Shown: positions 44,724 through 56,657, counted from the stretch's first letter. The stretch is 64,000 nt of DNA from an uncultured Halobacteriovorax sp. (GCA_913061265.1 CAJXVS010000001.1:434001-498000), one strand, 5' to 3'. The notes: generated from the sequence alone by a model not told the origin. Program-made: numbers and translations.

Positions 44724-45272
44724 TTAACGACAGCTTGGGATTCTGTACATGGCAGATCCTGAGTTTTGTCTTTCAGAGTATGAACCAAAATCAAGGTAAG
44801 TATCAAGACGTTGACTTCTCTTAAGAGGCTTTGTTCCTCTTTTTACACATCTTGATCTTCTTCTATCACCGTCTCCGTCACCTTCATTTACAACATAGCT
44901 TTCCCACTTAAGACAAGCGCTTCTTACCATTGGAATTACTTTAGTTACTGTAGTTGTTGTAAGGGTCTTACATGAAGGAGTATAGAAGGCTCCGAAACGT
45001 CCTGAAGAACCTTGAGCTCTCCACTCAGCGTCAGTTAGAACATAATCTTGTGGGAATACTGATCCACGATCATCAGAATCAACAGTCCAAATTCTTTCGC
45101 ATTTTTCAATCTTAACTTTTGCTTCTAATTCTCCGTCACCTAGGTAACAAACATTTTGAAGTCTAGCACCTACTGGGTGAAACCCTGTGTTGAAGTCATA
45201 TTTTTCATTAGCTCCAAGAGCAAATACACTTCCTGCAAACATCAATCCTACTAGTACAATTACTTTTTTCAT
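44724..45272 (-). CDS. Secreted Cys-containing protein, paralogue 1
   Basis: The 182-aa protein has a signal peptide (VLVGLMFAGSVFA) and a mature domain that is nearly collinear with the 201-aa neighbour. Shared blocks are GANEK(Y/F)DF, KCERIWTVDSD, GSVFPQDYVLTD, EWRAQGSSGRFGA, YTPSCK, ACLKWESY, RRSRCVKRG, QRLDTYLDFGSYS and RQNSGSAM. About six cysteines are conserved. The family was not recognised. Its upstream region holds the parS-like array. Confidence 0.8.
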   Translation of the reverse strand: MKKVIVLVGLMFAGSVFALGANEKYDFNTGFHPVGARLQNVCYLGDGELEAKVKIEKCERIWTVDSDDRGSVFPQDYVLTDAEWRAQGSSGRFGAFYTPSCKTLTTTTVTKVIPMVRSACLKWESYVVNEGDGDGDRRRSRCVKRGTKPLKRSQRLDTYLDFGSYSERQNSGSAMYRIPSCR

Positions 45273-45375
45273 TACAATCTCCTGTGTGTTGTTAACGGTT
45301 AAATTTTTCTAATGCACTTTATATAAGGACTAAGAATGAAAACCTCAACAGAGAAAAGTAAATGGGAGTGAATAC

Positions 45376-45484
45376 TGTTTCATGAGAAACGTATTTTATT
45401 TTTATGAATTTCGTGTGAAATATATTGAGGAGTGCTTTGGTTTCACGTGAAACTAATTTCTAAAAACTAGTTTCACATGAAAGG
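45376..45484. promoter_or_regulatory. Array of four parS-like palindromes, ~31 bp apart
   Basis: Four 16-bp sites lie at 45376, 45407, 45439 and 45469 (spacings 31, 32 and 30 bp, close to three helical turns). Site 3 has the perfect 14-bp core GTTTCACGTGAAAC (45440-45453) of the near-universal ParB-binding parS sequence. Sites 1, 2 and 4 are degenerate (TGTTTCATGAGAAACG, AATTTCGTGTGAAATA, AGTTTCACATGAAAGG). The array lies between the two secreted paralogues. It could be a centromere-like site or a helically phased operator. No parA or parB is in this window. Confidence 0.7.
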
Positions 45485-45493
45485 GATTGGTCT

Positions 45494-46099
45494 TTAATGA
45501 AATTCTTCGCGGCACCTTGGAATAGTAAACATAGCAGATCCAGAGTTCTGTCTATCACTGTATGATCCAAAGTCTAGGTAAGTATCAAGCCTCTGAGCGC
45601 GAGGTAACTTCTTATAGCCTCTCTTCACACATCTTGACCTTCTATTGCCCTCTTCATTGTTATAGCTCTCCCACTTAAGGCAGGCGGCACGTTTCATAGG
45701 AATCGATTTTATCACCTCAGTGGTCTTTAGAGTCTTACATGAAGGTGTATATAGAGCCCCGAATCGCCCTGAAGATCCCTGAGCTCGCCACTCTTTGTCG
45801 GTTAAGACATAGTCCTGTGGAAAGACGCTTCCTTGATGATCAGAGTCAACAGTCCAGATCCTCTCACATTTTTCTTTCTTGATCTTTCCCTTAAGGGTTT
45901 CATCATCGATATAGCAAACCTTATCTAGACCAGCTCCAGAAGGAGCAAAGCCTGTTCTAAAATCAAACTTCTCATTCGCCCCAAGGCGATTAAGATTAGA
46001 GTTTACGGCCATACCACCGCCACCACCTTGGAAGGTTCCGGCCATTGCAACATTAATTAAAATGAAGGCAAAGATAAAGATATGAGATGAGGTTTTCAT
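45494..46099 (-). CDS. Secreted Cys-containing protein, paralogue 2
   Basis: The 201-aa paralogue of the preceding gene has a longer N-terminus (signal peptide, then TFQGGGGGMAVNSNLNRL, a glycine-rich linker) before the shared LGANEKFDF block. The cysteines and GSSGRFGA motif are conserved. It is 14 bp downstream of the HTH gene, which suggests co-transcription. The function is unknown. Confidence 0.8.
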   Translation of the reverse strand: MKTSSHIFIFAFILINVAMAGTFQGGGGGMAVNSNLNRLGANEKFDFRTGFAPSGAGLDKVCYIDDETLKGKIKKEKCERIWTVDSDHQGSVFPQDYVLTDKEWRAQGSSGRFGALYTPSCKTLKTTEVIKSIPMKRAACLKWESYNNEEGNRRSRCVKRGYKKLPRAQRLDTYLDFGSYSDRQNSGSAMFTIPRCREEFH

Positions 46100-47277: not shown

Positions 47278-48105
47278 TTAATAACTAAGAAGCCCTTTAT
47301 TATCCCAATATTCAAATTCAAAATAGCCCATCTCTCTTATGAGTTTTTGCTTATTAATTTCAGAATCGATGTAACTTTTTTCAGGTAGTCGAGGGCCTCT
47401 ATCATCAGGATGAAGGTAGCCCCTGTCTTTAACAAAGGTCCTTGTCTCTTTTTCTTTTCGGTTTATTAAAGACGTATTCCACTCTTCAAGAGTCTTTGTT
47501 TTATCAGCAATTCCGACATCAAGGACATAAGGTTTTATGACGCCGTTCTCTTCTACAAGAACGTAAGGCGCAACATGATACCGCCACCCCACAAAGCCCT
47601 CAGCAGCAGGAACTTTTTCACCGGCCCTTTCTTTTGTCATCCATTCCTTTGGATAGAGGCCGCCACTATCGATTGCATCTCCGTACATGGTCATGGCCTT
47701 GCCCATTTCAATTCCATTGGCCTTCGCTATCAAGGCGTATTCATGGGCCCTAATCTCGCACCCTGCATGAAGATAATCAAACTTCATATAATCAACTTCA
47801 GAGAAGGCCTTAAAGAGTTTATCCGCTTCTTCTCTGCTGAGAACAGAAAGGCTGTCCTCTTCATATTCATTCGTTTTAAATTTCTTTGAAAAACCTAAAT
47901 CTACTTTCTCATGAAGTTTCGAGGCATCTGCCCCCTCTTCATAATAAACCTGCCTCGGAGGAACCTTCCCATCACGACAAGGCATAAGAGGATCAGTGCC
48001 ACGGCTTGCTACTTGATTGAAGCCAGTGATCGCATCTTCTAACTCTTGATTAGCATATGAATATGAGCATAGAGCGAGCCCTATGAGGAAGGTTAAGACT
48101 TTCAT
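47278..48105 (-). CDS. Secreted protein-glutaminase-like enzyme
   Basis: The 275-aa protein has a signal peptide (MKVLTFLIGLALCSYSYA). The segment AGCEIRAHEYALIAKANG (Cys116, His121) followed by GWRYHVAPYVLV (His177) and YVLDVGIAD (Asp196) matches the Cys-His-Asp triad frame of protein glutaminases (Chryseobacterium type, 'DGCYARAH...WSYHVAI...IIDPSL'). Such enzymes convert glutamine in proteins to glutamate. Nothing around suggests a toxin-immunity pair. Confidence 0.74.
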   Translation of the reverse strand: MKVLTFLIGLALCSYSYANQELEDAITGFNQVASRGTDPLMPCRDGKVPPRQVYYEEGADASKLHEKVDLGFSKKFKTNEYEEDSLSVLSREEADKLFKAFSEVDYMKFDYLHAGCEIRAHEYALIAKANGIEMGKAMTMYGDAIDSGGLYPKEWMTKERAGEKVPAAEGFVGWRYHVAPYVLVEENGVIKPYVLDVGIADKTKTLEEWNTSLINRKEKETRTFVKDRGYLHPDDRGPRLPEKSYIDSEINKQKLIREMGYFEFEYWDNKGLLSY

Positions 48106-48178: not shown

Positions 48179-48589
48179 TTAAGAGCGGCAATCACTACAA
48201 AGGCCAACGAGTTCAACGCTATGGCCTACTAAAAGAAAGTCCACAGTTTTGGCCATTTCCTTCATTCTTTTCTCGAGACCACATACCTTTAAACACTGAA
48301 TCTTTTTGCAATTACTACAACTGATATGATGATGATGATGCCCATGATTTACCAGTTCATAACTTTGATAGTCACCGGCGGAAGGAATGGATTGAATAAT
48401 TCCGGCTTCTTCAAGTTTAGTTATATTTCGGTAAATGGAGGATTCATTGAAAGATTCAAAGGTCTTATCGCCTTTAAAGTCTAAGACATTCAAAGGCTTT
48501 TTGGATTTTAAAAAGAATTCTAGAACAGATTTTCTGGCCTCAGTGACACTTAGTTTTTTTTCTTTTAAAAGCTTTTCTGCCTTAGTCAC
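48179..48589 (-). CDS. zur: Zur-type Fur family repressor
   Basis: The 136-aa Fur-family protein has a winged-helix domain (TEARKSVLEFFLKSKKPLNVLDF, SSIYRNITKLEEAGIIQ), a His-rich hinge (HGHHHHHISC), a structural CxxC pair (SCSNCKK) and a C-terminal second CxxC (GLCSDC). It lies at the end of the zinc-uptake operon it probably represses and overlaps znuB by 8 bp. Confidence 0.88.
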   Translation of the reverse strand: MTKAEKLLKEKKLSVTEARKSVLEFFLKSKKPLNVLDFKGDKTFESFNESSIYRNITKLEEAGIIQSIPSAGDYQSYELVNHGHHHHHISCSNCKKIQCLKVCGLEKRMKEMAKTVDFLLVGHSVELVGLCSDCRS

Positions 48590-49400
48590 TGCGCTTATTC
48601 CTCTGTGTTTGTAACACTAGACCAATGACCACCAGAAATACCAAAAGGGTTAAAACTTGAGTGGGCACTGTGCTTAGCCTCTCTAACCAAATAGAGCCAC
48701 CCAATCCTAGCATAGAACTTACTCCAGTAACAATAAGCATTATAGTAATTATCTGCCCCAGGCTTCTTCCTTTGCTACCTATTAGGACAGTTGGGAAGAT
48801 TATTGTTGAGACAGTAAAGAGGAAGCCAAAGCTATATAAAGAGATGACAAAAATAAGGGCAAAAAGAAGCTCTTCAGAAAGCTCGATTTTCTTAGAGCCT
48901 AAGACCGCTTTTTCAAAGCTCCCCCTAAGAAGTCTCCTTCTCATTAAAAGCATTATAATCAGTAAAACGAAAAGGATGATTGTTATAACAATTGATCTCT
49001 CTACAGGCAGAGACACAATATCCCCGAAGAAACTAACTGCCATATGACCTTCTAGCCCAGGAAATATTGAAATCAATAAATAGCTAATAGAAATAAGAGA
49101 TAAATAAGTGACGACAAAAAAGGTCTCCTTCGAACTTCTCATGATTCTTTTTGAATAGATAAAAAGAAGCTTGAAAATGATAAAGAAGATCAATGAAAAG
49201 ACTAGGACTCCGATTTCTTGTAACTTCTCTGAAAAAGCAAGGCGTCCAACAAGATTTCCAACCAAAGCAGCTTGCGCCAAGGCTAGGACTTGTAAACTCT
49301 CCTTTCTCGTTACGAGATGAGCTCCAAGAAAGCTAAGTAAGACCCCAGCCACTAAACAAAGTAAGAAAGCATATTGGTAGACAGCAAAGAGTTCAATCAT
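48582..49400 (-). CDS. znuB: Zinc ABC transporter permease
   Basis: The 272-aa ABC-3 family membrane protein has about eight hydrophobic helices and the typical N-terminal segment GVLLSFLGAHLVTRKESLQVLALAQAALVGNL, where ABC-3 permeases contact the ATPase. It overlaps znuC by 4 bp. Partner ZnuA/ZnuC genes are adjacent. Confidence 0.9.
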   Translation of the reverse strand: MIELFAVYQYAFLLCLVAGVLLSFLGAHLVTRKESLQVLALAQAALVGNLVGRLAFSEKLQEIGVLVFSLIFFIIFKLLFIYSKRIMRSSKETFFVVTYLSLISISYLLISIFPGLEGHMAVSFFGDIVSLPVERSIVITIILFVLLIIMLLMRRRLLRGSFEKAVLGSKKIELSEELLFALIFVISLYSFGFLFTVSTIIFPTVLIGSKGRSLGQIITIMLIVTGVSSMLGLGGSIWLERLSTVPTQVLTLLVFLVVIGLVLQTQRNKRSD

Positions 49401-49975
49401 AACAATTCCACTTCAACAACTTTATGTTGATCAAAGTCTACGGCCACGTGGCTGATCAAAATAATTCCTTTAATAATTTTCTCATCTAAAAGGTGAGATA
49501 AAAAATCGAGAACTTCACCTATGGCCTTTGTATCCATATGATTAAAAGGCTCATCTAAAATGAGAAAGCTTATTCCTTGCCTAAGCCGAGTCAAGATTAA
49601 AGCCTTTTGCCTCTCTCCACCACTAGCATCGTTAAAACGCCTCTTCTTCAATTCTTCTGGGATAATATCTTTAACTTCCTCTTTGAGTAAAAAGCAATCT
49701 AAGATTTCGCCAAGAGTTACACTTAGAGAAACTTCATGAGTAACGAGCTGAGGTAGGATCGCGACTTCTTTTTTATCAACGCTCCAGTAAACATTTCCCT
49801 CTAGAGGTTTTTTATCTCCAAAAAGGGTTTTAATAAGAGTTGTTTTCCCAGAACCATTTCTTCCCTTTATAAAGAGAACACCACCTTCTTCAACTGAAAA
49901 GTTTAAGTTCTTTTGGATGGCCTTTTTATAACCTATTGAAAGGTTACTAACACTTAAAAGATCATTCACGAGCAT
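49397..49975 (-). CDS. znuC: Zinc ABC transporter ATP-binding protein
   Basis: The 192-aa ATPase has Walker A GRNGSGKTTL, the signature ASGGERQK, Walker B FLILDEPFNHMD and the H-loop LISHV. It is shorter than most ZnuC proteins (about 230-250 aa), lacking the extra C-terminal part. It overlaps the znuA stop by 14 bp. Confidence 0.93.
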   Translation of the reverse strand: MLVNDLLSVSNLSIGYKKAIQKNLNFSVEEGGVLFIKGRNGSGKTTLIKTLFGDKKPLEGNVYWSVDKKEVAILPQLVTHEVSLSVTLGEILDCFLLKEEVKDIIPEELKKRRFNDASGGERQKALILTRLRQGISFLILDEPFNHMDTKAIGEVLDFLSHLLDEKIIKGIILISHVAVDFDQHKVVEVELL

Positions 49976-50861
49976 TCTCTAGAATCAAATTGGCTAGATT
50001 AACTAGAAGTTCTTCGTAGTTTGAAGGACTCCCAGTGAGCTTTATAGAAAGAGGGACTATGGCCACAGGAACACCTGAAATTTCATTAAACTTATCTAGG
50101 ATATTTTTCGGATTCGCCGTCGTTCCTAAGACTAAGTCTATCTTGTCTCTCTTAGCTTGAAGGCCAACTCTTGCAATTCTACCCGCCGATGGGGGGACTC
50201 CAGGAGTTTCTTCAATTGAACTTGCACTAACTAAGTTAAAGTCCTTAAAGAAGTAAGAGAACTCCTTATGATAACTCATAATTCTTATTCCAGATTTACT
50301 TTTTAAAAGAGCAGCGACCTTGTCTTTTATTTTGCTAATCTTAACCTTTAGTTTATCTAAATTGGCTGAATAGAATTCTACATTTTTAGTATCAACTTCA
50401 ATAAGGGTTGAAAAAATGGATTCTGCTGCTTGAAGGTAGAAAGTTGGTCCTAAATGATAATGTGGATTACCTTCCCCATGCATATCTCCCATAGAGCGAT
50501 CAATCTTACCTTTAGGTATATCAAGGGCCTTAACGGTCTTACCACCATTACAGTGTCCCTTTCCCCCTGGTTGAACTTTAGCGTTTCCTGAGCGGCTTAA
50601 TACTTTTGGCGCCCAGCCTACCTCTAAATCCATACCCACAAAACAAAACACATCTGCGTTACTAACTTTTGATATCCAATTAGGCATGGCATCTACGTAG
50701 TGAGGGTCTTCCGTTCCATTTAGGAGTGAAATGACTTCAACTTTGTTTGTCCCAATTTGATTTACCAGCCAAGCTAAATCGGGAGTTGTCGTAACAACCT
50801 TAATCTTAGCTTGAGCCAAGAAAGAAAAAGATAAAAATATAAGAACGAGAATATGTTTCAT
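49962..50861 (-). CDS. znuA: Zinc-binding periplasmic protein
   Basis: The 299-aa cluster A-I solute-binding protein has a signal peptide and the ordered metal ligands of this family: His in GTEDPHYVDAMPNW, His in GNPHYHLGP, His in MSYHKEFSYFFKDF and an acidic residue in the C-terminal part. It delivers zinc (or manganese) to the ZnuBC permease. Confidence 0.92.
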   Translation of the reverse strand: MKHILVLIFLSFSFLAQAKIKVVTTTPDLAWLVNQIGTNKVEVISLLNGTEDPHYVDAMPNWISKVSNADVFCFVGMDLEVGWAPKVLSRSGNAKVQPGGKGHCNGGKTVKALDIPKGKIDRSMGDMHGEGNPHYHLGPTFYLQAAESIFSTLIEVDTKNVEFYSANLDKLKVKISKIKDKVAALLKSKSGIRIMSYHKEFSYFFKDFNLVSASSIEETPGVPPSAGRIARVGLQAKRDKIDLVLGTTANPKNILDKFNEISGVPVAIVPLSIKLTGSPSNYEELLVNLANLILENARE

Positions 50862-50869
50862 AGAGATTC

Positions 50870-51928
50870 CTAAAAGCTATGGGCAGGATGAGCTCCCAAG
50901 ATAAAGACAAATTGGGCCATGGCCTTTGTATCTTTTCCTGAAGTTAATCCTTCTTCTCTTGTAAAAGAGTGAGAGAGCCCTAGTCTTGTTTTGACAAATT
51001 CACTTGAATTCCAAGTCAGTTCAAGAGAGCTACCATAGTCGATGTTATTAATTTTTTTATTAGTAATGGCGTTTCTTTTACTCAAGTCTTTAAAAGCGTC
51101 CAGTCTAAGTCCTAAAAGGAAGTCACTAGAGAACCCGTATTGATTAAAGACATAGAGTCCAACTTGCTCAGATACACTTTCGAGGCGGTCTTTTTGTGTT
51201 CTAAACCAGGCTTCACTTATGATTTGATAAATAAGCCTTTTTCCCTCTCTCCATTTTGCAACAATCTCAGCACCAGTAAGCTTTGTTTGATTCTTTTGCT
51301 CATCTGTTCTTCCAAGGTAACTTAAAGAAAAGAGAAGACCATTTGTACTAGAGAATTCATTAAAGGTAGCTAACTTTAAGTAGTGAGTGGGTACTAATGG
51401 TTTTGAGCCAGAAGTATGAGCGTGCCCAAAGCGATGACCAGAAGTTAAGCCAACAGTTAAATCTAAGTAAAAGTCTGTCGGTAATAGATACCCATATTCA
51501 ACTCCAGCATCAAAAACCCCTTCTTCATCAAGAAAGGTTTCATGGACTTTAGGCGCCTCTATAAAGGGCCAATCATGTTGATGAATATGATTGATCCTAC
51601 CTATTCCTAAAAAGTACTGACCTATCTTAAACCTAGATCTAGGAATCATTTTTGTAGAAGCGAGGTATAACTCATGAAGTTCAAAGACCGTCTCACCATT
51701 TTCATCATGGGCAGCAGCCGTTAAGTTTCCGTCAAACCTATGATCTATAGGAGCAAAGAAACTCATCTCTGCTCCTCTCATTTTTAACTTTTCATTTGCA
51801 CCACTAGTCTCATTTAGACCTTGGCTATAAACCATATCACCAGAAAGACTCACTTCAAGTCCACTGGTATCCATAGCTTGAATAGGAAGTGATAACAAAG
51901 ATAAGGTGACTAATATTAAATTACGCAT
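50870..51928 (-). CDS. Outer-membrane barrel protein of the zinc operon
   Basis: The 352-aa protein has a signal peptide and a series of alternating beta-strands ending in aromatic F (ILGAHPAHSF), typical of outer-membrane barrels. Conserved HIHQHDWPF and GHRFGHAHTSG are His-rich periplasmic or surface loops. It lies in the zur-znu operon, so it is probably a zinc porin. Similar Zur-controlled 'ZnuD2-like' barrels are known in other genera, but sequence identity was not tested. Confidence 0.7.
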   Translation of the reverse strand: MRNLILVTLSLLSLPIQAMDTSGLEVSLSGDMVYSQGLNETSGANEKLKMRGAEMSFFAPIDHRFDGNLTAAAHDENGETVFELHELYLASTKMIPRSRFKIGQYFLGIGRINHIHQHDWPFIEAPKVHETFLDEEGVFDAGVEYGYLLPTDFYLDLTVGLTSGHRFGHAHTSGSKPLVPTHYLKLATFNEFSSTNGLLFSLSYLGRTDEQKNQTKLTGAEIVAKWREGKRLIYQIISEAWFRTQKDRLESVSEQVGLYVFNQYGFSSDFLLGLRLDAFKDLSKRNAITNKKINNIDYGSSLELTWNSSEFVKTRLGLSHSFTREEGLTSGKDTKAMAQFVFILGAHPAHSF

Positions 51929-52541
51929 CAGAAACTGCTCCTAAAGGCCCTTCAAGGTCTTCAATCAAACTTCGATCTCCTTGGACACCCCAAAATGTTC
52001 CAGGAGCACGGCCTTGGCTTCCCCATGGACCGTCGTTGGGAAAAGTATAAAATTCACTATTATAAAGACAATTCCCGTCTTCTACACATTCTTCTGAGTC
52101 ATCATAAGGCCCTTGAGAATTCCAAAGTATAAAATGTGAATCTTCATGATCGTTATGCATATCAAGCATGACATCTACAACTTCACCAACGTCCTTAAGT
52201 TCTCTGGTATCAGATTCTCCATTTAAGCTAAAGTTAACAAAGGTCTTTCCTCCAGTTCTATTAAAAGTAGCCACTAGTGCATTATTAAGACCTCTATCTG
52301 AAAAGAAAAAGAACCTAAGGGATTTTCCCTCTGGAAGGTTAAACTTCATTTTAAAACTATGGGCGCCACCAGCTTCCATAGTTCCACTAAGAAGTAGTTT
52401 TCCCTCTCCAATTTCTAAAAAGGGGATGCCTCCTAATATTTTATCAAAGGGAGTTTCATTGGCCCCTGTACTTTTACCGGTAAGCTCTCCACAAGAGTTA
52501 AAAACCAGTGATATAAAGAGAAGAGCAATCATTTTTTTCAT
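51921..52541 (-). CDS. Lipoprotein of the zinc operon
   Basis: The 206-aa protein has a lipobox (LVFNSC-GE) and a beta-sandwich-like mature domain. Its C-terminus is rich in aspartate, glutamate, asparagine and glycine (SEECVEDGNC, YTFPNDGPWGSQG). It overlaps the barrel gene by 8 bp and the His-rich gene by 4 bp. The role in zinc handling is inferred from position only. Confidence 0.62.
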   Translation of the reverse strand: MKKMIALLFISLVFNSCGELTGKSTGANETPFDKILGGIPFLEIGEGKLLLSGTMEAGGAHSFKMKFNLPEGKSLRFFFFSDRGLNNALVATFNRTGGKTFVNFSLNGESDTRELKDVGEVVDVMLDMHNDHEDSHFILWNSQGPYDDSEECVEDGNCLYNSEFYTFPNDGPWGSQGRAPGTFWGVQGDRSLIEDLEGPLGAVSDA

Positions 52542-53113
52542 AACGTTGGCTCCCCTTTTCCTTTTCTTTTATAATGACAAGCAAATCCTTCTTCTTTTTC
52601 TTCATGCTCGTGGCACTGTATAAAGACGATCACTTCTTTTCCACTCATGTCGTAATTAACTTTTGTCCAAACATCAGCTCCATGCTCATGCCCATCATCT
52701 CCTGAATCAGTAGAAGAGAGTTTCCAAACTTTAATTGATTTAAGAACATTTAAATCAGAGCCTCTTCTTCTAAGAGTCTTTTCAAGCTTTTCAAGACCAG
52801 CGGTATGACCTTCTTCTATATGATCAAAACCTTCCTGACTCTTTAGAGCTTTATGATCGTCGCCTTCCTCGTGGCAGGCCATGCTGTTACCATGAAAGTG
52901 ACATCCAAAAACATGAACTTCTTTCTCATCCTTAAAAGAGACTTCAATCTCTTCATTTAGGGGTGTTACTTCAAAGGCAGTAACAGTATCTAAATCTATC
53001 TCAAAACTCGCCTCTTCTATGGCCGCATCTCTAGCAGCTATAAGGTTAGCGCCAGTAACTGACCATGCATTTAGACTTAAAAATAAAACTGAAATGATTA
53101 ATGATATTTTCAT
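52538..53113 (-). CDS. His-rich secreted protein, first gene of the zinc operon
   Basis: About 191 aa from MKISLIISVLFLSLNAWS, a signal peptide. It contains GCHFHGNSMACHEEGDDH, GDDGHEHGADVW and QCHEHEEKEEGFACHY, likely zinc-binding clusters. I prefer the ATG at 53113 to one 39 codons upstream because the longer form puts the signal peptide internally. The shared control region with the plus-strand 627-aa gene starts immediately upstream. Confidence 0.78.
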   Translation of the reverse strand: MKISLIISVLFLSLNAWSVTGANLIAARDAAIEEASFEIDLDTVTAFEVTPLNEEIEVSFKDEKEVHVFGCHFHGNSMACHEEGDDHKALKSQEGFDHIEEGHTAGLEKLEKTLRRRGSDLNVLKSIKVWKLSSTDSGDDGHEHGADVWTKVNYDMSGKEVIVFIQCHEHEEKEEGFACHYKRKGKGEPTL

Positions 53114-53130
53114 TTTGTACCTCGCTGTAA

Positions 53131-53147
53131 TTGCAATTGATTTGCAG
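53131..53147. promoter_or_regulatory. Probable Zur box 1
   Basis: TTGCAATTGATTTGCAG contains the inverted repeat TGCAA-N5-TTGCA, repeated 44 bp away in the same divergent control region. Four helical turns separate the copies. The assignment to Zur is by context. Confidence 0.6.
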
Positions 53148-53174
53148 AAAAATCTTAACAGAGTGAATTTGTTT

Positions 53175-53191
53175 TTGCAATAGACTTGCAG
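53175..53191. promoter_or_regulatory. Probable Zur box 2
   Basis: TTGCAATAGACTTGCAG is the second copy, identical to box 1 at 15 of 17 positions. Each copy is nearest to one of the two divergent genes (53113 minus, 53246 plus), so each may control one arm. Confidence 0.6.
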
Positions 53192-53245
53192 TTTTGTTAG
53201 CGTTCTTAAAATTAAAAAGAACAACAACAACTGAAGGATTTAGAT

Positions 53246-55129
53246 ATGTTCCATTATTTCAAACACTTAGCGGCTTTTCTTATCATCATCCCTTACCTCG
53301 CTTTTGCCCATGGCAATCATGGAGGTGGCAGTATCAGTATTGAAGATATGTTTGCCTCCCCATGGCACCTTCATCTACCAGTAGAGATAGGCCTTGATGG
53401 CAGCACTCATTACGGGTACGGGGGCCATAGTCATAGCGATCACGAAGATCACGAAGATCACGAAGATCACGAAGATCACGAAGAGCATGATGACCATGAT
53501 GGTGAGCATGACGAAGACGGACATGAAGAGCACGAAGATCATGACGAAGAAGAGCACGAAGAATCCGAAAGCAACTGGAGCCTTCATCCTTCTTTAATTT
53601 TTGGAGGTGATGTTATCTCTCGAACTTTAGCCTTAGATAAAGTTTTAGTTGGAAGTAGAAATGGAGAGATTCAACAGACTAATGGATCAAAGGGATTCTT
53701 AGTTATAAAGAATACTAAGATTACCGCGGGCCTAGGTCTTGACCTAGACTACCACTTACCGACTACTGGATTGATAGGAATTGGTATCTCTAAAGTTAAA
53801 GGTTCTAAAAAGTACTCAGAGCAATTTGTTAAAAGCCTAAAAGATAAAGATCAACTTAAATCGATGAAAGCACCTAGAACCTTAAAGGACCTAGAGAAGT
53901 GGACTATTGGTGATAAGCTAGTTTTTGGTGTTAATGGTGGTTTTACTCTTATGTCTCATTTTGGGATAGAGCCTTTCTTTCACGCAGGACCTTTATACCA
54001 CGCTGGCGGCTCTTGGGTGGTTAAGATTAAAAAGCTAGATGATTCTAAAATGGAGTTAAGAATTAGTAAAAGTAAGGTTAAGGCCTTGGCCATAGAAGTA
54101 GATGGAATCTTTATCTCTGCCGAAACTGAAAAGTTCAATGGGCAAGATAACTTCATGTCATTTATCTTTGATCTCTCCACTCTTAATGCTGAAATTGCTC
54201 TTGAGAAGCTATATAAAGGTGATCTCAAATATGCTCAATCCCTTATGGCGCAAAAGAACTCTGGAGTAACAAGACAAACTAAAGGTGGTAGCCTAACTGC
54301 AGGCACAACAAAGATGATTAAATTCTCTCTTCCTTTTTTCTTTGGGGCTTCAAAGGCAAAAGCAAAGCTTAGCTCTTATGGAAACGAAGAAGACCTAGTC
54401 AGAAATTCCAAAACAAAAGTTTATAGTTCGATTGTGGGAATTGAGACCTCAACAAAAGGAATTCTAAGTAAGCATAAAATGGCGATAAAGAACTTTTACG
54501 CCAATTTTGCAGATGAATGGCATGTGGATCATCAGCACGTAAGTTTCGGTGGAAGCTTCAAGTGGATGTATGAGAAAGATAAGGTTCGTTCAAAAACAGT
54601 TATGAACAAACTTGAAAAGCTCCAAAAGCTAACAGGAATGTACAAATCACTCGACCTAACTCTACCTGAGAAGAAACTAGGATACTTTAGAGTTGAGTTT
54701 GATACGAATATCTCAGACAAAGACACTCTTAAATTAATGGGCCTCCCTGAGAACAAGCAGGCTCCTGTCGAGGAGTTCATAGCAACAGCTAAAAGTAACT
54801 CTCATTTTTTAATTAAAGAGTATTTTCAAACAAAAGACTCTAAAGATCTTTGTCCTATTCTTTCTGCTAGAAAATGTATGAAAAAGATGAAGAAAAAGAC
54901 TCGCGAAGCTTTTTCTAAGCTAAACGGCCTAAGTCTTAAAATGAAGAAGCTCTTTGTTGAGAAAAAGTATAAACAATGGACAGAGGCCTACGCTACTTGG
55001 GGTAGCCACTTAATCTCTAATCAATTTGTTTTTAAAGCTGTCCTCTCAGAACTTAAAAAGACGAAGTTCGAAATTTCTCTTAAGGGTGAAAAAATCGCTA
55101 CTCAAAAGCTTAAGCTCAAACTTAAGTAA
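53246..55129 (+). CDS. Large His-rich secreted zinc-locus protein
   Basis: The 627-aa protein has a signal peptide ending at AFA-HG and a His/Asp/Glu-rich zone (residues about 55-108). It includes five exact DHE repeats encoded by GATCACGAA (53438-53482). The remaining 500 residues contain beta-rich and helical parts with two cysteines near 545 but no recognised domain. It is divergent from the zinc operon behind the same boxes, so it probably binds or captures zinc outside the inner membrane. Confidence 0.78.
   Translation: MFHYFKHLAAFLIIIPYLAFAHGNHGGGSISIEDMFASPWHLHLPVEIGLDGSTHYGYGGHSHSDHEDHEDHEDHEDHEEHDDHDGEHDEDGHEEHEDHDEEEHEESESNWSLHPSLIFGGDVISRTLALDKVLVGSRNGEIQQTNGSKGFLVIKNTKITAGLGLDLDYHLPTTGLIGIGISKVKGSKKYSEQFVKSLKDKDQLKSMKAPRTLKDLEKWTIGDKLVFGVNGGFTLMSHFGIEPFFHAGPLYHAGGSWVVKIKKLDDSKMELRISKSKVKALAIEVDGIFISAETEKFNGQDNFMSFIFDLSTLNAEIALEKLYKGDLKYAQSLMAQKNSGVTRQTKGGSLTAGTTKMIKFSLPFFFGASKAKAKLSSYGNEEDLVRNSKTKVYSSIVGIETSTKGILSKHKMAIKNFYANFADEWHVDHQHVSFGGSFKWMYEKDKVRSKTVMNKLEKLQKLTGMYKSLDLTLPEKKLGYFRVEFDTNISDKDTLKLMGLPENKQAPVEEFIATAKSNSHFLIKEYFQTKDSKDLCPILSARKCMKKMKKKTREAFSKLNGLSLKMKKLFVEKKYKQWTEAYATWGSHLISNQFVFKAVLSELKKTKFEISLKGEKIATQKLKLKLK
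53438..53482 (+). repeat. Five tandem 9-bp repeats GATCACGAA
   Basis: Five exact in-frame copies of GATCACGAA encode (Asp-His-Glu)5 in the His-rich protein. Exact copies suggest recent expansion and length variation between strains. Confidence 0.95.
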
Positions 55130-55134
55130 AAAAA

Positions 55135-55168
55135 GCCCCCAGTCTAACTGGGGCCTTTATTCTTTTTT
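55135..55168. terminator. Bidirectional terminator
   Basis: The hairpin CCCCAG-TCTAA-CTGGGG (55137-55153) is flanked by A- and T-runs. It sits between the stops of the 627-aa gene and the convergent His-rich gene, with T-rich stretches on both outer sides. Confidence 0.85.
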
Positions 55169-55470
55169 TATTTCTTAACTTTCTTCTCAGGTCCTTCACA
55201 ATCGTGAGTATGTCCTTGCATCTGGTGATGCTGATGCCCATCATGCTTATAGTCAGTATGATCCCCATGTTTCTTAGCATCATGTCCGCAACCTTTTTTA
55301 TGAAGATGCTTATGATCCTTATGATGATCATGGTGATGACTATGGTGGTCGTGACCTCTATGCATATTCTGAACGTTTTCTTCGCTATGCTTATGCTTCT
55401 TAGTTTTCTTATCTGAAGCTATGCTAGAAAAAGAAAATAATAAAGCGATTGAAATTAATATAGTTTTCAA
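55168..55470 (-). CDS. Small His-rich secreted protein
   Basis: The 100-aa protein has a signal peptide (MKTILISIALLFSFSSIAS) and a mature part with about 24 His in 80 residues (HRGHDHHSHHHDHHKDHKH...). Two Cys are present (GCGHD, HDCEG). It is probably a zinc- or nickel-binding store or buffer. No Zur-like box was seen upstream. It converges on the 627-aa gene. Confidence 0.8.
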   Translation of the reverse strand: MKTILISIALLFSFSSIASDKKTKKHKHSEENVQNMHRGHDHHSHHHDHHKDHKHLHKKGCGHDAKKHGDHTDYKHDGHQHHQMQGHTHDCEGPEKKVKK

Positions 55471-55616: not shown

Positions 55617-56657
55617 ATGACTGATATAATCAACTTGAAAACAAACACATATTATATTGAAGTGACTGGATCTGGGATACCCGAAATTGACGGCCTCTTC
55701 GTGCCTTCCGTAGCGCCTCCCGTAAAATCTGAATCAGGAACTAAGTCTAGCTTAGGTTACTGGAACGGCAGGATGGCATGGGACCGTGCTGACGGTAAGG
55801 CCGCTAGAAGCCCTTCCCTTTCATACTCAAATAGTTATAAGTCGTGGAGGATCTCGCGTCTCGATGGGCATCTTGCTTATGATATGACTTGTGACGATGA
55901 GTTACCTCCAACAGACAGAGAGTGGCATGTTTATAAAATGGGCGTGGCCCCAGCTCCTAAGATAATTCTTCACTTCTTTGATCCACGTAAGCCCTGTCCC
56001 GAACCTAATGTCGTCTTCATTTTGGGCGGCCCTGGAAGTGGCAAGGGCACAATGTGCGAGCTAGCAGAAATACAACTTGGTTGGGTGCACCTCTCTGCTG
56101 GAGACCTTCTACGTGAAGAGCGAAAGAAAGGCGGGGAGGTTGCTGATTCAATCGAAGATTTTATCACAGGAGGAAAGTTAGTTCCCCGTGAGATCATAGT
56201 GAATCTTCTTAAAAGCGCTATGGAATATACGACTAGAACTACTGGCAAGAATAATTTTCTAGTGGACGGCTTTCCTCGATCTGTGAACAACCTTGAAGGC
56301 TGGCTTGAAGCTTCTGGGCCCGATGCCAAGCTTCCGAAGATGCTCTATTTTGAGTGCCCTTACGATGTCCTTGAAAAACGAGTCATGGGGCGGGCCAAGT
56401 TTACGGGTCGTAGCGATGATAACCTTGAAAGCATAAAGTTAAGGTTTGATACTTTTAAGGCCGAGACCTTACCTACTGTTGAATTATTCAAGAGTAAGAA
56501 TCAATGTGTTGAAGTGGATGCTAGTCAAGAAAGACAGGATGTTTATTCTGTCTTTAAAAAGGGATTGAGTGAGCATACTGATAAGTCGCTCTTAGAAGAT
56601 CCTTTTACGGAAAAAGCAGAGATGCTGCTTGGGCTTAGGCCTTATCCTAAAAAATAA
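55617..56657 (+). CDS. Adenylate/UMP-CMP kinase-like protein with extra N-terminal domain
   Basis: Residues 130-320 are a nucleoside-monophosphate kinase: P-loop FILGGPGSGKGT (134-145), HLSAGDLLREE, GGKLVPREIIVNLL, FLVDGFPRS and GRAKFTGRSDD. This resembles eukaryotic UMP-CMP/adenylate kinase 1. Residues 1-120 are a separate W/Y-rich beta domain (IEVTGSGIPEIDGLFVPS, LGYWNGRMAWDRADG, WRISRLDG, LPPTDREW) of a kind I know mostly from protist proteins. GC is about 52% in three 60-base lines I counted, well above the neighbours (about 37%). Transfer is likely. Confidence 0.82.
   Translation: MTDIINLKTNTYYIEVTGSGIPEIDGLFVPSVAPPVKSESGTKSSLGYWNGRMAWDRADGKAARSPSLSYSNSYKSWRISRLDGHLAYDMTCDDELPPTDREWHVYKMGVAPAPKIILHFFDPRKPCPEPNVVFILGGPGSGKGTMCELAEIQLGWVHLSAGDLLREERKKGGEVADSIEDFITGGKLVPREIIVNLLKSAMEYTTRTTGKNNFLVDGFPRSVNNLEGWLEASGPDAKLPKMLYFECPYDVLEKRVMGRAKFTGRSDDNLESIKLRFDTFKAETLPTVELFKSKNQCVEVDASQERQDVYSVFKKGLSEHTDKSLLEDPFTEKAEMLLGLRPYPKK

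Follow-up and report, generated by a model that had tools for sequence, protein, structure and literature searches.

A conserved porin-znuABC operon with a Zur-like regulator as a candidate TonB-independent zinc path in a Bdellovibrio-like bacterium

Gene content and operon structure

The analysed window is a stretch of 64,000 nucleotides from an uncultured Halobacteriovorax sp. The host genome, that of a Bdellovibrio-like organism, is 3.97 Mb in size and 99.75% complete. Seven minus-strand genes of the window form one tight operon in the order H191-LIPO-BARREL-znuA-znuC-znuB-zur. Neighbouring genes of the operon overlap by 4 to 14 bases, and the sole gap (8 bp) lies between the barrel gene and znuA. 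The first gene encodes H191 (52538-53113), an exported protein of 191 aa with Cys/His motifs. Its start at 53113 is preceded by a GAGG ribosome site and was preferred to a 230-aa version of the ORF, which is a mechanical extension across the boxes described below. The following genes encode a lipoprotein, LIPO (51921-52541), and a 16-strand porin-fold outer-membrane protein, BARREL (50870-51928), which we regard as a candidate zinc porin from its model, its similarity to OprP/OprO, its adjacency to znuA and its invariant His residues.

The next three genes carry the domains of a ZnuABC-type zinc ABC importer, all above the Pfam cut-off: znuA (49962-50861; PF01297, E 1.7e-37) for the periplasmic zinc-binding protein, znuC (49397-49975; PF00005, E 3.4e-17) for the ATPase, and znuB (48582-49400; PF00950, E 4.4e-12) for the permease. 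The best PDB matches of the znuA product are the zinc ABC binding proteins 2ov1/1pq4. The last operon gene (48179-48589) has a GTG start and encodes a Zur-like regulator of the FUR family (PF01475, E 5.6e-18).

H627 (53246-55129, plus strand), an exported protein of 627 aa with a His/Asp/Glu-rich N-terminal arm and a core of about 480 aa, is divergent from the operon. A bidirectional terminator (55137-55153) separates it from H100 (55168-55470, minus strand), a small exported His-rich protein with 23 His in 100 aa, a TTG start behind AGGAGG and a signal-like N-terminus. Two putative Zur operators, box 1 (TGCAATTGATTTGCA, 53132-53146) and box 2 (TGCAATAGACTTGCA, 53176-53190), lie between H191 and H627, each with an exact TGCAA-N5-TTGCA palindrome. 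The analysis confirmed all parts named in the first-pass annotation: znuABC, zur, the barrel, the lipoprotein, the 191-aa and 627-aa proteins, and the palindromic boxes. A phage origin of the locus received no match.

Three observations concern the surroundings. Adjoining zur, an exported protein with a protein-glutaminase-type domain is encoded at 47278-48105 (minus strand; PF18626, E 2.3e-17). A tandem pair of genes at 44724-46099 (minus strand) encodes two exported proteins, of 182 and 201 aa, that are clearly related to each other; the 182-aa one has no Pfam match. The gene at 55617-56657 (plus strand) has an unusual architecture, with an adenylate/UMP-CMP-type kinase domain (PF00406, E 1.4e-35) after an unassigned N-terminal region of about 130 aa.

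Conservation of the cassette in relatives

The genomes of relatives and a scan of 84,980 species genomes gave 54 non-duplicate barrel-gene loci, mostly from Bdellovibrionota. The gene directly downstream of the barrel gene was znuA in 50 of the 54 loci. The other genes occurred less regularly: znuB in 47, znuC in 40, LIPO in 34, a nearby FUR gene in 18, and H191, at the same position, in 15. From these counts, barrel-znuA is the core of the cassette, LIPO is a frequent partner, and H191 accompanies it in a portion of the clade. H191 and LIPO are not essential parts, because they are missing from many barrel-znuA loci. The barrel, the lipoprotein and the 191-aa protein, which the first-pass annotation had proposed as unrecognised zinc components, therefore belong to a zinc operon of the Zur type as conserved members. 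One relative (G004) has two split cassettes, H191-LIPO-BARREL without ZnuABC (L087) and BARREL-ZnuABC without H191/LIPO (L091), with a box each.

Within the phylum, a profile search found the barrel in 101 of 291 genomes, or in 85 of 222 when only the good ones are counted. Outside the phylum, barrel loci were found in Vibrio, in Sulfurovum, and in records titled Candidatus Manganitrophus, Zetaproteobacteria, Betaproteobacteria and Leptospiraceae, of which some MAG titles may be wrong. The Sulfurovum copy has as neighbours a binding protein and a permease annotated as parts of a zinc ABC system. Bdellovibrio bacteriovorus has the same cassette, so the cassette can be tested in that organism.

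Palindromic boxes and the regulator

The whole 3.97 Mb genome contains only two exact copies of TGCAA-N5-TTGCA, both at this locus and 44 bp apart. Every inverted repeat of five bases around a 5-base spacer (1024 in total) was scored in the region upstream of the cassette at the 54 loci. Of these loci, 23 had the TGCAA palindrome and 2 had the next best one. The shared palindromic boxes of the first-pass annotation are thus conserved regulatory boxes, which recur at the same place in relatives far above chance. The wider consensus is approximately TWATTGCAARTNAYTTGCAWTWA. In B. bacteriovorus kdesi (L121), the box before the same cassette grows into a near-perfect 31-bp palindrome, TTTCTAAATGCAAATTTATTGCATTTAGAAA. 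The exact box is missing from about half of the loci, which counts against control of the cassette by a Zur box. Where the first cassette gene lacks an exact box (29 loci), a few one-mismatch sites occur, and no replacement palindrome common to these loci was found.

Several relatives have the box between the FUR gene and the cassette. In one genome (G019), an unlinked box separates a FUR gene from a cluster that includes a MerC gene (L166, contig C24), and in another (G035) a box precedes the gene of another MerC-family membrane protein (L090, 9550-9998). The same regulator may control such MerC genes as a second target. Since the palindrome recurs beside Fur-family genes, once unlinked from the cassette, TGCAA-N5-TTGCA is very probably a Zur box, and the locus would supply a Zur-box consensus for Bdellovibrionota. 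Most other exact matches in relatives lie within coding sequence and are probably due to chance. A wider regulon did not emerge in the own genome, where mismatched sites were near the reversed-pattern control (103 vs 89 at up to 3 mismatches) and all six sites with 2 mismatches were inside ORFs.

Read by eye, TTGCAA (53175-53180) in the region of box 2 is a possible -35 and TAAGAT (53152-53157) a possible -10 element, with a spacer of 17. Together they could drive H191 as a weak sigma-70 promoter. Box 1 follows closely downstream, in a repressor-like layout; the promoter scan did not list this promoter.

The regulator scored 65.7 bits against the FUR-family domain model PF01475 (cut-off 23.1). 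Its score with the Zur equivalog PRK11639 was 41.1 against 167 bits, but that model describes a gammaproteobacterial protein, so a score under its cut-off is compatible with a Zur function. The sequence by itself cannot fix the FUR subfamily, and we infer Zur from the context and the box. The barrel-znuA-znuB operon of Vibrio campbellii has no TGCAA box; TGTTATGCTATAACA and TGTTATAACATAACA lie immediately upstream of it. The Zur site of V. cholerae is TGTTATGTTATAACA, which TGTTATGCTATAACA matches at 14 of 15 bases (PMC8248653). These Zur-like sites would tie the barrel-znuA operon to Zur independently.

The same evidence bears on the metal. A locus for Mn, Co or Cu with a Mur- or Fur-like regulator would agree with the unfixed FUR subfamily and with the Mn binders that the ZnuA family also includes. 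Against this, ZnuA matches zinc binding proteins first, the closest ABC models are those of the zinc system AztABC, and the Vibrio orthologue has a Vibrio-type Zur site. We consider another metal very improbable.

The barrel protein

The AlphaFold2 model of the barrel (45 homologues) has a pLDDT of 93.3 and 16 strands. Its closest solved folds are OprP/OprO and general porins; with OprP, the Z score was 28.2 at 3.0 A over 306 residues. The number of strands and a loop (107-138) between strands 5 and 6 assign the model to the 16-strand outer-membrane porin fold. In porins, this loop is at the position of the constriction loop L3. The loop contains the invariant residues N113, H116, H118 and E136, in the pattern N-x2-H-x-H. 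The model places H74, E83, H85 and E86 on strands 3 and 4, and H347 and H350 are at the chain end in a C-terminal GxHxxH motif.

H116, H118, H347 and H350 were present in every sequence, even at about 25% identity, those of Vibrio and Sulfurovum included. The Vibrio, Sulfurovum and four distant Bdellovibrionota barrels retain E86, N113, H116, H118, E239 (or a neighbour), H347 and H350, whereas most other charged positions change. Such a pattern of retained His and acid residues is what a metal path would leave, and the His residues may face the lumen.

The barrel could also be an ordinary general or anion-type (OprP-like) porin that is merely co-regulated, with structural His residues and unspecific diffusion of zinc. 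The fold itself, which general and phosphate porins have in common, agrees with this, as does MspD, a Zur-induced mycobacterial porin of general type with a reported accessory zinc role (PMC13098993). The znuA adjacency in 50 of 54 loci argues against an ordinary porin, as does the invariance of the L3 and C-terminal His residues across distant lineages in which most other charged positions vary. We therefore rate an ordinary porin as rather unlikely, and prefer a pore dedicated to zinc.

A TonB-dependent receptor was considered and rejected: the barrel matched neither the plug (PF07715) nor the barrel (PF00593) model, and the confident model has 16 strands. The absence of TonB-dependent receptors stated in the first-pass annotation is true of the locus, but two such receptors are encoded elsewhere in the genome. 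An HmuY gene follows one of them; the second is an ordinary plug-plus-barrel protein, BtuB-like by our reading. Neither is near a box, because the only exact boxes of the genome are at this locus.

LIPO and H191

Among 31 homologues of LIPO, the lipobox C17 and two His residues, H129 and H136, around an HN(D/E)...H motif were invariant. The LIPO model (pLDDT 88.7) is a lectin/galectin-type beta-sandwich, with Z scores of about 9-12 to CBM66, galectins and legume-type lectin domains; the beta-sandwich is a common fold. H191 has a CHxHG...CH motif in its first half and a CHxH...CH motif near the C-terminus, the latter kept in nearly all homologues. It had been described as a His-rich protein, and is better called an exported CHxH...CH protein, with a conserved place in the operon. 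Neither LIPO nor H191 had a convincing known family in Pfam or PDB, the window proteins likewise had none in NCBIfam, and H191 had no relative among PDB chains. From its motifs, H191 is a putative zinc carrier. The His-bearing proteins may be exported past the periplasm.

The lectin-like fold allows for import of a zinc complex (a zincophore, or glycan- or protein-bound zinc) by the barrel and LIPO, with LIPO as the surface capture part. CBM66, galectins and lectins are its structural relatives, and its gene is beside the barrel gene in 34 of 54 loci. Yet no metallophore synthesis genes were seen at the locus, and the barrel is a porin pore and not a gated receptor. Import of a complex thus seems improbable to us, and we retain free zinc as the likely cargo.

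H627 and H100

The arm of H627 consists of 15% His and 25% Asp/Glu, and its gene has the boxed intergenic region in common with the operon. The C-terminal part of about 480 aa belongs to a phylum-wide family found in 51 of 192 genomes, with ten matches in one genome. This core matched neither Pfam, PDB nor the barrel profile (hhalign probability 2%). The N-terminal arms of the homologues consist of MGD, GN or NxGN repeats, including that of a paralogue in the own genome (G000:C5:1-2126); among the homologues read, only this lineage has the His-rich (HED) arm. The core family (L003-L029) thus has swapped N-terminal repeat arms of the HED, MGD, GN and NxGN types.

The first-pass annotation had counted the 627-aa protein among the zinc components of the locus. 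We rejected it as a cassette member, as its homologues sit away from the cassette in all relatives examined. There is a substantial chance, somewhat short of even, that H627 is a repeat-arm surface protein that stands beside the operon by accident and is unrelated to zinc, in line with the location of its homologues and their MGD, GN or NxGN arms. The acidic, His-rich arm and the shared boxed region speak against this, as does one homologue (L103) that has a His-rich stretch and is followed by a CobW (COG0523-type) gene. The CobW/COG0523 family is partly linked to zinc (PMC2770081). With low to moderate confidence, we take H627 for an exported protein of the repeat-arm type that came under the zinc promoter in this lineage, its zinc role being suggested by the arm and the promoter. 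It is probably a lineage-specific, zinc-induced, metal-binding add-on, an assignment of low confidence. H100 has no box, and its match to the ZrgA model is weak (E 0.0069) and far below the cut-off.

Proposed zinc path

The locus is of the known Zur-controlled Znu type. What is new is the recurring outer-membrane porin with probable metal-ligand residues, together with two unnamed exported families. We favour, with some confidence, an operon for zinc acquisition that is repressed by Zur and provides a path across both membranes. Upon zinc starvation, Zur would leave the two TGCAA-N5-TTGCA boxes and the operon would be transcribed. The 16-strand porin would be a dedicated, TonB-independent pore for Zn2+, in which the invariant His and acid residues around L3 would attract zinc and the His-bearing C-terminus would release it on the periplasmic side. 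The CHxH...CH protein H191, and possibly also a porin-docked, lectin-fold LIPO, would hand zinc to ZnuA, and ZnuBC would pump it inward. A passive pore by itself has no concentrating force, which is a point against a zinc pore; tight binding by ZnuA would make the entry of zinc one-way.

An alternative zinc path across the outer membrane, built from the barrel and secreted His-rich proteins, had been suggested before. A TonB-independent path is a natural reading because the operon has conserved Zur-type parts and the barrel has a porin fold; H627 does not belong to it as a cassette part. The conserved set of porin, lectin-fold lipoprotein and Cys-His protein suggests a non-TonB passage of zinc across the outer membrane. 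More tentatively, and with the balance slightly against it, the set may be a full TonB-independent conduit: a family of zinc-selective porins with a His-lined constriction, together with a lipoprotein of lectin fold and a periplasmic CHxH...CH carrier, both feeding ZnuA directly, controlled by Zur through a clade-specific box, in Bdellovibrionota and scattered lineages of other phyla.

To our knowledge, TonB-dependent receptors account for almost all that is known of zinc passage across the outer membrane. The znuA-linked porin family with its invariant His residues offers a defined candidate for a passive, zinc-selective pore that can be tested, and the locus gives three uncharacterised protein families a functional context.

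Comparison with known systems

Zur-regulated znuABC/aztABC loci have the same ZnuA-family protein, ATPase, ABC-3 permease and FUR regulator in one operon. The best NCBIfam models for the present locus, AztA for znuC among them, are AztA, AztB and AztC, but no score comes near the equivalog cut-offs of Azt and Znu (AztA 85/220, AztB 32/280 and AztC 71/350 bits). The present locus also differs in that AztD and ZinT are missing and that it encodes three extra exported proteins, among them a porin directly before znuA.

ZnuD-type TonB-dependent receptors mediate Zur-controlled zinc entry across the outer membrane (PMC2895646, PMC4176598). The barrel would fill the same role, but it has 16 strands, no plug and no match to the TonB barrel model. 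A 2018 review of Zur regulons lists mostly TonB receptors as outer-membrane zinc components (PMC6103462). Our literature search found no paper on this porin-znuA operon, and such an absence is not proof of novelty.

OprP/OprO and general 16-strand porins have the fold and the strand 5-6 loop in common with the barrel. The barrel differs from OprP/OprO in its low identity (about 12%), in the invariant His and acid residues that replace the arginine ladder, and in its link to znuA. Many barrel homologues (24 of 45 at E <=0.01, best 6.5e-9) match the BBP2 putative porins of Pfam (PF07642), while the window protein is under the cut-off (21.2 vs 26.2 bits).

The nearest porin precedent is MspD of Mycobacterium smegmatis, reported as a porin-type, non-TonB zinc route under Zur, as the barrel would be (PMC13098993). 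MspD is a mycobacterial porin of the MspA family, unrelated to the barrel in sequence, and its abstract does not state membership in a znuABC operon (PMC13098993).

ZrgA, PA4063 and ZepA are exported His-bearing zinc proteins that are controlled by Zur and encoded beside transporters (PMC8248653, PMC8561739, PMC10957091), as would be the case for H191 and LIPO. H191 and LIPO differ from them in matching neither the ZrgA model NF047873 (cut-off 185 bits; H627 scored 9.4 and H100 16 bits) nor any PDB chain. ZepA is defined by a C-terminal PEP-CTERM and an H-X2-9-H-F/Y-H motif (PMC10957091), whereas the C-terminus of LIPO is GPLGAVSDA, and its HNDHEDSHF stretch lacks the H-F/Y-H triad.
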